Source: an uncultured Nioella sp. (GTDB taxonomy: Bacteria; Pseudomonadota; Alphaproteobacteria; Rhodobacterales; Rhodobacteraceae). Taken from it: 64,000 bases of DNA. Positions 15,235 through 20,415 of this stretch are shown here, piece by piece (position 1 is the first letter of the stretch; each line of letters opens with the position of its first letter). The position numbers were made by a program, and so were the translations under genes. The stretch spans positions 1-64,000 of the forward strand of contig CANLZL010000003.1 of NCBI GenBank assembly GCA_947495575.1, in the 5' to 3' direction. The notes under the pieces were generated by a model, which worked only from the letters and a program-made list of their open reading frames with translations, was not told where the DNA came from and did not search any database.

Positions 15235-17349
15235 TCAAACACCGAACCCCTGATAGGGCAAAAAAGTGACGGGATCGCCTTCGGTAATGTCCTGCGCCTC
15301 GAATGGCAATTCGACCAACCCTTCCGCCCAGGTCAATCCGGAAATACGGCCTGAACCCTCGGATTTGAACAGCTCGGCCCTCCCGTCATCGGTCAGCCTT
15401 GCCCGCGGATATTCCGCGCGGCCATGTTTTTTGGATTTTGTGAAGCCCGCCGGTACAGTCATGCGCAATGGTTCTTTCCAACCAGCACCGGCCAAAAGGC
15501 TGAGCGCCGGGCGCGCAAACAGGAGTGCGCATGTGAGCGCCGCAACGGGATTTCCCGGCAACCCAAAAACCGGCACGCCGTGCCATTGTGCCAACGCCAA
15601 AGGGCGCCCCGGTTTCAATGCTATGCGCCAACTGCTTAACGACCCGTGGTCGCGCAACAGGCGGGAAATATGGTCTTCATCTCCCGCAGAAGCGCCGCCC
15701 GATGTGAGAATTGCATCCACGTCTTGCGCAGCGCGGTTCAAAGCTGACCGTATGATTTCAGGATCATCCGGCTGGCGGCCGAGATCGACCACATCATACC
15801 CCCAACCGGCCAGCATGGCGGCCAACATCGGGCGGTTTGCGTCGTAGATTTGACCGGCAGCGGCCGTCGCCCCGGCCTCTAACAACTCATCTCCCGTCGA
15901 AAGGACAGCAACGCGAAGCGGGCGGAACACATCGACCTCGCCAATGCCAGTCGCGGCGAGAAGCGCCAGATCCGGGGGGCGCAGGCAGTGTCCTGCAGGA
16001 AAGATGACATCGCCCTCGACCACATCCTCGCCAGCCTTCCGCGTGTTTGCTCCAGGTTTCACGGCCCCATGAAAGGCCACCGCGTCAGGCGCTACAGCGC
16101 AATCCTCTTCCAAGACAACGGTGTCGACGCCAACAGGTATAGCTGCCCCAGTCAAAATGCGAATGGCATGCCCCGCCGGAACTCTGCCCACAAACGGCTG
16201 CCCCGCGGCAGATCGTCCCTCGACCAGCGGCAGCGTTTGTGGCCCGCTCGTGATTGATGCATGCGCAAACCCGAAACCATCTACGGCGGAATTGGCCGTT
16301 GGCGGGTTCGAGCGTTTGGCATGGACATCAAGCGCGATGACCCGCCCCGCGGCCTGTGAGATGTTCAACGCTTCAGGCACTGTAACTGGCCGCAGCGCCG
16401 CTTTCAGCCGGGCCAGGGCTTGGGGCACTGGGGTCCAGTCCACACCGGGCGGCAGGGCAAAACAGTTGTCTTGCAGACGAGGTGGTGCCAATGGTGGCTT
16501 GGACTGCGCCGCGCGGATCAGCTCGCCCACGTGGCCAAAACCGAAAATCCAGCCTTCATTTTTGTTTCCTTCGGCCAACATCGCGTTCAAGCGATCCGGG
16601 GCGAGGTTACTGAGCGCCGTGGCGACAACTCTGACCTGGGTTGCATCAAGTATCTCGTCAGGTAGGCGCAGTGCCTCGACTTCTTCCGCCAACAAAGAGG
16701 GGTAGATCTCTGTCAGGACAATCGCAGCATCGGGCGTTTCGAAAGGAGCAACAGCAAGATCCGATCCGAAATGTTCACGCAAAGCATGAAGCCGAGGGAT
16801 TCCAAGCAGCGCCTGCGAGCCTACTGAACCCGTGGTAAAAAGCTTCCAGCATGTTTGCGCTCGCAGCACGTATTCCTCAATCTCGCGTCGATCGGCAAAC
16901 GCGGGGCTTCGTGGTTTCGTGCCCTCAAGGTCAGTAGTGGAGCGCCCAGATGGACAGCCCCAGAACGGGCCCGGCGCGTCAAAACGCTGGTTGATCTCTT
17001 CCGCGACATCAAAGCGATTGTTGGCGTTATCGTCGTGATCTTCAATCCGCTCGGAAAGCACTTTCCATAACGCAAGAGGGTCGTGGCTGCCGGTCATCGC
17101 CTGGGCGAAGCCTTTTGGGTAGCCAAACGGGAAATCGAAGCCGGTCAAGACGCGCCGATCTTTCCGGATTTCGCTTTCGAAGAGGTCTATCAACGCGCAT
17201 TGCGCGGCAGACCTCGTGCGGTGATAGGTGACGTCGATCTTTGCGCCACGGGTCACGGCAATCCAGATGGAATCCGGAGATGGCTTTGCGGGCGAGGGTA
17301 CTGACCTTGCGGAATAGTCGACCGCGACGAATGTATCGAAACCGGTCAT
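15235..17349 (-). CDS. Fusion protein: N-terminal DUF429/RNase H-like domain + MoeA molybdopterin molybdotransferase
   Basis: N-term VAVDYSARS...LTGFDFPFGYP...EIYPSLL; C-term MoeA motifs NSAVDGFGFA, RILTGAAIPVGVDTVVLEED, VAVLSTGDELLE, ILTSGGASAGDEDH, GLPGNPVAALT. Confidence 0.88.
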   Translation of the reverse strand: MTGFDTFVAVDYSARSVPSPAKPSPDSIWIAVTRGAKIDVTYHRTRSAAQCALIDLFESEIRKDRRVLTGFDFPFGYPKGFAQAMTGSHDPLALWKVLSERIEDHDDNANNRFDVAEEINQRFDAPGPFWGCPSGRSTTDLEGTKPRSPAFADRREIEEYVLRAQTCWKLFTTGSVGSQALLGIPRLHALREHFGSDLAVAPFETPDAAIVLTEIYPSLLAEEVEALRLPDEILDATQVRVVATALSNLAPDRLNAMLAEGNKNEGWIFGFGHVGELIRAAQSKPPLAPPRLQDNCFALPPGVDWTPVPQALARLKAALRPVTVPEALNISQAAGRVIALDVHAKRSNPPTANSAVDGFGFAHASITSGPQTLPLVEGRSAAGQPFVGRVPAGHAIRILTGAAIPVGVDTVVLEEDCAVAPDAVAFHGAVKPGANTRKAGEDVVEGDVIFPAGHCLRPPDLALLAATGIGEVDVFRPLRVAVLSTGDELLEAGATAAAGQIYDANRPMLAAMLAGWGYDVVDLGRQPDDPEIIRSALNRAAQDVDAILTSGGASAGDEDHISRLLRDHGSLSSWRIALKPGRPLALAQWHGVPVFGLPGNPVAALTCALLFARPALSLLAGAGWKEPLRMTVPAGFTKSKKHGRAEYPRARLTDDGRAELFKSEGSGRISGLTWAEGLVELPFEAQDITEGDPVTFLPYQGFGV

Positions 17350-17837
17350 AATCCCAGCTCCGCTGCGATGAAATCTGCAATTCCGTCTGTGTCATCAAGT
17401 TGCAAAACCGGGCATGGCGCATCTGGTGCACTGTCTGAAGCGACGGCGCGGATCGTGGGATCGTCCTGCGCCAGCAAGGGCTGGCCGGTGGCCGCGCGGT
17501 GCGCCTCGATCTTTGGATGGGATTCACGTTTGAACCCTTCGACAAGGATCAGATCAACTGGCGAAAGCTGTTGCAGTAGGTCAGTCAGGTTTGGTTCCGG
17601 CGTGCCACGCAATTCGCTCATTAAGGCCCATCTGTTGGCCGAGCTCAGCAGAACCTGACTGGCACCGGCAACGCGGTGGCGATGGCTGTCCTTTCCTGGC
17701 TGATCCACGTCAAAGTTGTGATGCGCGTGTTTTATTGTCGAAACCGTCATGCCACGAGAGGTGAATTCGGTCACCAATCGTTCCATCAACCCGGTCTTGC
17801 CAGAGTTTTTCCAACCCGCAATGCCCCAAATATTCAT
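17346..17837 (-). CDS. mobB: Molybdopterin-guanine dinucleotide biosynthesis protein B
   Basis: GIAGWKNSGKTGLMERLV, TIKHAHHNFDVDQPGKDSHRHRVAGA. Confidence 0.94.
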   Translation of the reverse strand: MNIWGIAGWKNSGKTGLMERLVTEFTSRGMTVSTIKHAHHNFDVDQPGKDSHRHRVAGASQVLLSSANRWALMSELRGTPEPNLTDLLQQLSPVDLILVEGFKRESHPKIEAHRAATGQPLLAQDDPTIRAVASDSAPDAPCPVLQLDDTDGIADFIAAELGL

Positions 17838-18442
17838 TGCAGAAGCTCCTCGGCCCGGATCAGATCTTTGGGCGTATTGACGTTAAAGAATGGGTCAAAA
17901 GGATCATCGGGATAGGCTGCCAACGCAGTGCCATGACGATCTGTCCATATCACGACCTTGCGCACGCCCTCAGTCAGAGCCGCGCGCAGATCGTCGCGCA
18001 ATGAGACCGGCCAAAGGCCGAAAGTCGGCTGGCGCCAAAGCTTATCACCTGCTTTGGTTGCTGCCAGAGCAATCGGTTTTCCGTCTGCGTCCGCTGCGTT
18101 AACCAGAACTGCCACAAGATCTGCCGGGAATAGCGGCGTGTCCGCCGCCGCGGTCACGATATGGCTGGCCCCGCGGGCCGCGGCCCAATCCATCCCAGCC
18201 AGCACACCTGCAAGCGGGCCCGGATGGCCTGCTATGCTATCGGCCAGGACTGGCAGACCCAAATCGGAAAAGCGGGCCGCGTCGCCATTTGCGTTAAGCG
18301 CCAGTTTTTCGACCTGCGGTGCCAAACGATCAATGACATGTTCGATCAACGGGCGCCCAGCCAATGGCAACCGCCCTTTATCGCCCCCGCCCATGCGGGT
18401 TGCGAGGCCACCCGCAAGGATTACCCCCAAGGGCCGGCTCAT
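17834..18442 (-). CDS. mobA: Molybdenum cofactor guanylyltransferase
   Basis: GVILAGGLATRMGGGDKGRLPLAGRPLIEHVIDRL. Confidence 0.94.
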   Translation of the reverse strand: MSRPLGVILAGGLATRMGGGDKGRLPLAGRPLIEHVIDRLAPQVEKLALNANGDAARFSDLGLPVLADSIAGHPGPLAGVLAGMDWAAARGASHIVTAAADTPLFPADLVAVLVNAADADGKPIALAATKAGDKLWRQPTFGLWPVSLRDDLRAALTEGVRKVVIWTDRHGTALAAYPDDPFDPFFNVNTPKDLIRAEELLQ

Positions 18443-19341
18443 TCCCCTGCTCCTTTTCGCCGACTACGCTTTGCTTCATCTGGTACATTTGCCAGATCGG
18501 CGTCGCGGATCAAACGCTCCTCACCTGCGAGACAGATGAACCTTTTGCCTTTCAGCCGTCCAATCAGGGTGAGGCCAATCTCTTGCGCGATTTCGACGCC
18601 CCAGGCCGTGAAGCCCGAGCGTGAGGCTAGCACCGGAATGCCCATCAGCGCGGTTTTGATCACCATTTCTGAGGTCAGGCGGCCAGTGGTGTAGAGGATC
18701 TTGTCGCCGGCACTTTCGCCGGTCTGGAACATCCAGCCTGCGACTTTGTCGACTGCGTTGTGGCGCCCGACGTCCTCCATATAGACCAAGGGCCGGTCAT
18801 GCCGACAAAGCACGGTGCCATGAATCGCGCCCGCCTCAAGATAAAGGCTAGGGGTGCGGTTGATCTGATGGCTGAGTGAGTAAAGCCACGAAGTGCGCAG
18901 CTTGGCGGCAGGTAGGTTCAGCCCCTCCAGCCCTTCCATCATATCGCCGAAGACAGTGCCAACGGCACAGCCGCTGGTGCGCGTCTTGCGCGCCAGTTTT
19001 ACCTCATGATCTGTTTCAACTTCGGTCCGGACAACCACAACGCCAAGTTCTTCGTCATAATCGACGCCTGTAACCACATCGCTATCGGCCAACATGCCCT
19101 GATTGCGCAGGAACCCAAGGGCAAGGTATTCCGGGTAATCCCCAATGGTCATCGCGGTCACGATCTCGCGCCGGTTCAAGTAGATCGTCAACGGGCGTTC
19201 CTCGACAACCGAGGTTTCAATCGCATCACCGTTTTCATCATACCCCGCGACCGTCCTGGTCAGCCCGGCCCTCGCCGGATCAGGCGCAATCACGTAACGT
19301 GATGTGAACTCATCAGAAACACTCATTTGCATCCCATCCAA
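18439..19341 (-). CDS. fdhD: Formate dehydrogenase accessory sulfurtransferase FdhD
   Basis: EDVGRHNAVDKVAGWMF, TTGRLTSEMVIKTALMGIPVLASRSGFT. Confidence 0.94.
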   Translation of the reverse strand: MDGMQMSVSDEFTSRYVIAPDPARAGLTRTVAGYDENGDAIETSVVEERPLTIYLNRREIVTAMTIGDYPEYLALGFLRNQGMLADSDVVTGVDYDEELGVVVVRTEVETDHEVKLARKTRTSGCAVGTVFGDMMEGLEGLNLPAAKLRTSWLYSLSHQINRTPSLYLEAGAIHGTVLCRHDRPLVYMEDVGRHNAVDKVAGWMFQTGESAGDKILYTTGRLTSEMVIKTALMGIPVLASRSGFTAWGVEIAQEIGLTLIGRLKGKRFICLAGEERLIRDADLANVPDEAKRSRRKGAGE

Positions 19342-19384: not shown

Positions 19385-20089
19385 ATGCCAAGCACCACCA
19401 CCAAAAACACCTTTGTCGCAGGCATTCGCACTGCCCTGCCCTTTGCCATCGTTGTGACGCCCTTTGCCATGGCCTTTGGCGCCGTTGCGGCTGAGGCCGG
19501 GCTGAACATCGCGCAAGTCATGGGATTTACGGTGCTGGTCATAGCAGGGGCGGCACAATTCACAGCGCTGCATCTGATGCTGGACCAAGCGCCTACCATC
19601 ATCGTGCTTCTGTCGGCCCTGGCGGTCAATCTGCGCATGGCCATGTATGCAGCGACCCTCGCGCCCCATATCGGCGCGGCCCCGTTATGGCAGCGGCTGA
19701 TGGTGGCCTACGGAAACTTCGACGCGACATTTGCCATGTCGATGGCGAACTACGAGGCCGAGCCTGATCAGAGCCCACCCGAAAAGGCCCTGTTCTTTCT
19801 TGGCACCTGCGCATTCCTATGCCCTATTTGGTTTGTCGCCAGCTATCTGGGCGCGATCCTTGGGGCGGTGATCCCAGCCGAGATCGGTCTGGATTTCGCG
19901 GTTCCGATCCTCTTCATATCCTTTGTTGCACCTGCCTTGCGGACATTTGCCCATGTGGCCGCGGCGGCCGCATCGATCATATTGTCGCTGAGCTTCGCTT
20001 GGGTGCCCTACAACCTGTGGATTCTGGTCGCGGGCATTGGCGGTATGATGGTCGGAGCCGAAGTTGAACGGCGGAGGGCAAAACCATGA
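19385..20089 (+). CDS. azlC: AzlC-family branched-chain amino acid exporter subunit
   Basis: Hydrophobic protein; FGAVAAEAGLNIAQVMGFTVLVIAGAAQFTAL; followed by AzlD. Confidence 0.88.
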   Translation: MPSTTTKNTFVAGIRTALPFAIVVTPFAMAFGAVAAEAGLNIAQVMGFTVLVIAGAAQFTALHLMLDQAPTIIVLLSALAVNLRMAMYAATLAPHIGAAPLWQRLMVAYGNFDATFAMSMANYEAEPDQSPPEKALFFLGTCAFLCPIWFVASYLGAILGAVIPAEIGLDFAVPILFISFVAPALRTFAHVAAAAASIILSLSFAWVPYNLWILVAGIGGMMVGAEVERRRAKP

Positions 20090-20415
20090 TCGGATGGTCA
20101 GATGCCTCGATATGGACGATCATCATCGTCCTTGGGATCGGTACATTTCTGATCCGCTATTCATTCCTTGGCCTTTTGGGCGGTCGCGATTTGCCGGAAT
20201 GGGTATTGCGACATCTGCGCTATACGGTCGTGGCGATCCTACCTGCACTGGTTCTGCCCATGATCCTTGCCCCAAGCGCGGCCACCGGCAGCCCTGAACC
20301 TGCCCGGATTGCGGCCGCAGCCGTGGCATTGGTCGTCGGCTACCTGACACGGCACGGGATTGCGACGGTCCTTGCGGGCGTCGCAACCTTTGGTGCGCTG
20401 CAATGGCTGCTTTAG
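20086..20415 (+). CDS. azlD: AzlD-family transporter small subunit
   Basis: ~109-aa hydrophobic protein, 4-nt overlap with azlC. Confidence 0.87.

Follow-up and report, generated by a model that had tools for sequence, protein, structure and literature searches.

Among described systems, one close to the gene considered here is that of M. extorquens, in which MoeA1, MobB and FdhD together assemble the tungsten cofactor for a formate dehydrogenase, MoeA1 and MobB interact, and an Arg/Ala pair marks MoeA1 as the tungsten insertase (PMC13197769). A further point of reference is offered by the DUF429 proteins, which are predicted nucleases (PMC3985635). A literature search returned nothing on a MoeA fused to a DUF429-like domain, nor on the fusion of the domain described below to CbiC. 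Here we analyse such a MoeA fusion, encoded in a stretch of 64,000 nucleotides from an uncultured Nioella sp. (the window), together with its relatives in Rhodobacteraceae and beyond. Our overall reading, to which we give about an even chance, is that the protein is bifunctional, combining an insertase of the MobB-linked MoeA branch with a putative metal-dependent phosphoester hydrolase that was recruited repeatedly and then fused.

The fusion gene and its operon

The original prediction held that a single uninterrupted frame of 704 aa joins a full C-terminal MoeA to an N-terminal part unrelated to it, the latter being an RNase H-like domain of the DUF429 type. The frame is indeed intact, with an ATG start and zero internal stops, and it lies on the minus strand, a point that the prediction had left out. 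The features of the locus are as follows:

15235..17349, minus strand: ND-MoeA fusion ORF, 704 aa (ORF, with Pfam and NCBIfam matches)
16495..17349, minus strand: predicted N-terminal RNase H-like domain (ND), residues 1-285, with conserved D11, D72, E214 and D235 (conservation and AlphaFold model)
15235..16482, minus strand: MoeA molybdotransferase domains, residues ~290-704 (Pfam, catalytic residues)
17346..17837, minus strand: mobB, overlapping the fusion ORF by 4 bp (Pfam/NCBIfam)
17834..18442, minus strand: mobA, overlapping mobB by 4 bp (Pfam/NCBIfam)
18439..19341, minus strand: fdhD, overlapping mobA by 4 bp (Pfam/NCBIfam)

The fusion gene thus closes an fdhD-mobA-mobB-(ND-moeA) operon, each junction of which is a 4-bp ATGA overlap. 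An azlC/azlD-like pair (19385-20415) is divergent from the operon, and azlC is kept at the same place in relatives. ND and MoeA share one frame at 51 of the 80 named genome loci, a count which, like the others over loci, includes a few duplicates because certain genomes had been retrieved with several tools. The fusion is therefore not an assembly artefact, and a frameshift or assembly error joining two ORFs is ruled out. A role in anti-phage defence was rejected, the sole PADLOC match being weak (E 0.011).

The C-terminal part is a full MoeA, as predicted, with all three MoeA domains of Pfam found in residues 307-698 (MoeA_N, E 1.6e-36; MoCF_biosynth, 1.3e-30; MoeA_C, 6e-10), and with PF03453, PF00994 and PF03454 each above cut-off in the fusion ORF. 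It keeps equivalents of E. coli D59, T100, D142, E188, D228 and D259 (pattern DTDEDD), and carries Arg and Ala where E. coli MoeA has K282 and S303. This R/A signature recurs in 100/100 MobB-linked MoeA sequences, whether ND accompanies them or not, and the housekeeping MoeA copy, which adjoins moaC, has Lys/Ser at these sites. Given that the signature is the one described for M. extorquens MoeA1, its presence suggests that the window fusion is probably a formate-dehydrogenase-type insertase and possibly a tungstate-preferring one. Orthologous MobB-linked MoeA proteins are found without ND in many genomes, and hence ND is not needed for insertion.

Fold and conserved residues of the N-terminal domain

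All four motifs quoted in the prediction for the N-terminal part are present: VAVDYSA (residues 8-14), LTGFDFPFGYP (68-78), EIYPSLL (214-220) and DATQVRVVATAL (235-246). Residues 1-300 gave zero Pfam matches, even at E 10, while the NCBIfam model NF011066/PRK14495, a MobB/unknown-domain fusion, matches residues 2-277 (4.6e-75); hence ND had been noticed previously but left unnamed. An AlphaFold model of ND built from 27 relatives (mean pLDDT 94.5, pTM 0.90) places its elements in the order b1 (6-11), b2, b3, aA (46-62), b4 (67-71), a helical insert, b5 (210-214) and further helices, and DSSP of this model recovers the RNase H-like topology b1-b2-b3-aA-b4-aB-b5-aC. D11, D72 and E214 lie at the ends of the modelled strands b1, b4 and b5, and the catalytic Asp in b1 and the acidic residue at b4 that characterize RNase H-like domains correspond to D11 and D72, both present in 141/141 sequences. 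A Foldseek search of the PDB with the model gave a best E of 0.11, which is below significance; the first 50 matches consisted almost entirely of RNase H-like or ASKHA proteins (RuvC, integrases, TerL, TsaB, Spt6, Cas9), and a control model of true DUF429 proteins obtained no better scores than ND. The model thereby supports an RNase H-like fold for ND, and this part of the original prediction stands, with the reservation that the structural matches are weak.

The DUF429 label fared less well. Motif order and predicted topology speak for it: DUF429 (PF04250) and ND have in common the order D / D-x-P-x-G / Q / E-x-x-P / D, with the Asp after b1, D-x-P-x-G after b4, the Gln in the insert and E-x-x-P after b5, and in both a helical insert separates b4 from b5. 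However, the insert is longer in ND, the DDxLDA motif of the C-terminal helix is missing from canonical ND, and DUF429 residues D212/D216, invariant in A2, are without counterpart there. Proof of kinship by sequence failed, as the PF04250 profile matched none of the 27 ND members and hhalign of ND against DUF429 gave a non-significant probability of 3-4%. Because the profile comparison is non-significant and the DDxLDA motif is missing, we term ND DUF429-like, a separate family rather than a DUF429 member. A divergent subgroup of ND (L182-L186) keeps D11, D72 and E214 and has a C-terminal DHxxDAL-like motif resembling DUF429; from its sequence it is a possible bridge between ND and DUF429.

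Each of the 141 sequences set against the window ND has D11, D72 and E214 unchanged, and D235, Q179, Q238 and R155 are invariant in 136/136 canonical ND sequences. This invariance of the core holds across molybdenum cofactor (Moco), B12 and other contexts. Residue 12 of the window ND (17314-17316) is Tyr, and Trp occupies this position in all 141 relatives.

Genomic contexts of the domain

ND is present in 92 of the 150 sampled genomes of the family, essentially at one locus per genome. The survey of fused versus stand-alone forms that the original prediction had proposed brought to light fused, stand-alone and alternatively fused versions: besides ND-MoeA, the remaining named loci include ND alone between mobB and moeA, MobB-ND (4) and MobA-ND (1). 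ND and MobB are adjacent in 61 of the 73 genomes having both. In their co-occurrence across genomes the two are only weakly associated (73/19/37/21, p = 0.04). Genomes that lack ND often have a direct MobB-MoeA fusion. Some Rhodobacteraceae have lost fdhD, mobB and moeA and have retained ND between azlC and greA. At L043, L054, L057, L058, L064 and L067 a lone ND occupies this azlC...greA locus, and adjoining fdhD, mobA, mobB and moeA are absent.

Outside Rhodobacteraceae, ND was not found adjoining Moco genes. There it often lies within a cobalamin operon, either in the order CbiX-ND-CbiC-CobL followed by CbiG-CobJ, or as an ND-CbiC fusion; a cobalamin gene occurs within 3 kb of ND at 15 of 40 sampled class loci. 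At one locus (L164) the ND start coincides with the stop of CobU directly upstream, and the CobU gene family is likewise found upstream of ND at another (L156). ND-CbiC also occurs in six fetched Rhodobacteraceae genomes. When 24 genomes with ND-MoeA or a Moco-locus ND were searched for CbiC, most had a separate CbiC and five had none detected. In the ND tree the Moco-context domains form one supported clade (SH-aLRT 97), with two CbiC fusions (L191 and L203) nested inside, and the CbiC-fusion label requires nine changes; the fusion has therefore been repeatedly gained or lost. Among other contexts, the ND frame runs on into a hydantoinase A homologue at L148:3357-6677, and at L173, L176, L177 and L181 the setting is RNA-related, with ND adjoining a gene of the poly(A) polymerase/tRNA nucleotidyltransferase-like kind.

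MoaA was found in 133/133 high-quality genomes of the sampled family; the family sample therefore holds no Moco-less genome, and a test of ND on such genomes was dropped. In the wider class, two genomes, G787 (100% complete) and G347 (92% complete), have ND with MoaA, CbiC and MoeA all undetected, and in both ND retains the conserved residues. The activity of ND thus cannot strictly require either pathway. The original prediction, which tied a nuclease-like fold to molybdate insertion, is borne out as regards the fusion to MoeA, but proves too narrow, given that the same domain accompanies B12 enzymes elsewhere and is present in the complete genome G787, where MoaA, MoeA and CbiC are all undetected.

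Proposed function and comparison with known systems

ND is usually single-copy and stands in Moco or B12 clusters of related bacteria, so that it probably has a single conserved task, which came to be linked physically with the assembly of cofactors. We read ND as a protein that probably bears an active site and has a general activity, attached more than once to enzymes of cofactor synthesis. The C-terminal part we envisage as a functional metal insertase from the MobB-linked branch of MoeA; it would serve MGD enzymes, formate dehydrogenase among them, and may favour tungstate. ND, as a predicted single RNase H-like domain with an intact carboxylate site, would most likely hydrolyse phosphoesters in a metal-dependent manner, a single conserved activity independent of its genomic partner. 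It appears to have been recruited repeatedly into cofactor operons, for cobalamin across Alphaproteobacteria and for the molybdenum/tungsten cofactor in Rhodobacteraceae; adjacent co-translated genes could then have fused via loss of the overlapping stop. Tethering might place the hydrolase near nucleotide-activated intermediates, namely MPT-AMP and MGD, or GDP-cobinamide, the choice of substrate being a guess. That ND hydrolyses these very intermediates (MPT-AMP or MGD, and GDP-cobinamide), as a repair or proofreading enzyme shared by the Mo/W-pterin and corrinoid pathways, we consider quite improbable; if true, it would add a new substrate class to the RNase H fold.

Other readings have to be set against the hydrolase. 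ND might be a non-catalytic scaffold or docking domain that keeps MobB and MoeA in contact, taking the place of the direct fusion seen between the two in other genomes. Its position exactly between MobB and MoeA, the frequency of direct MobB-MoeA fusions in genomes that lack it, its additional fusions to MobB and to MobA, and the MoeA1-MobB interaction in M. extorquens (PMC13197769) all agree with such a role. Against a scaffold, which we consider unlikely, speak the carboxylates and polar residues that are invariant in every context, including in CbiC fusions and in stand-alone ND far from mobB/moeA, and the retention of ND where moeA is undetected. An RNase H-like fold with a DUF429-like carboxylate pattern would also fit a genuine RNA/DNA nuclease, housekeeping or regulatory, whose cofactor-operon position reflects co-regulation only. 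DUF429 proteins are themselves predicted nucleases (PMC3985635), and a genome in which MoaA, MoeA and CbiC are all undetected still has ND. Rfam, however, detected no riboswitch or other RNA at the window or at six B12 loci, a result upon which the idea of a riboswitch-linked RNase was dropped, and the recurrent fusion to CbiC and MoeA speaks for a tie to these enzymes; the nuclease therefore strikes us as a doubtful candidate. The notion that ND represents a MoeA domain in extended or modified form has only the covalent fusion in its favour and a practically negligible probability: stand-alone ND proteins of ~280-310 aa in many genomes refute it and uphold the predicted lack of relationship to MoeA, and ND is also fused to MobB, MobA and CbiC.

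The preferred reading, a bifunctional insertase and putative hydrolase, has several implications. A family catalogued only as an 'unknown domain' has an invariant active-site-like core, and one gene takes alternative positions in two unrelated metal-cofactor pathways. Its activity, once found, would reveal either that the Mo/W and B12 pathways have a step in common or that one housekeeping enzyme is tied to both. The MoeA partner points to the branch that Rhodobacteraceae likely use for formate dehydrogenase, perhaps with tungsten, and this branch is of interest to biotechnology.

With regard to known systems, positions 165-447 of the NF011066/PRK14495 profile match ND, but the domain is joined to MobB there and to MoeA here, and the window protein scores under the whole-protein cut-off (253 vs 596 bits). 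The MobB-MoeA fusion NF011060/PRK14491 belongs to the same MoeA branch and has the same MobB-then-MoeA order (3.8e-123), but forms a single chain with MobB, with no ND between. M. extorquens MoeA1 is likewise MobB-linked and has Arg/Ala in place of E. coli K282/S303, whereas no ND-like domain is reported on it in the accessible text (PMC13197769). Finally, the archaeal MoeA1-PBP and the gephyrin/Cnx1 fusions resemble the window protein in combining MoeA with an additional domain, but the added domains are PBP-like or MogA and unrelated to ND (PMC11733289).
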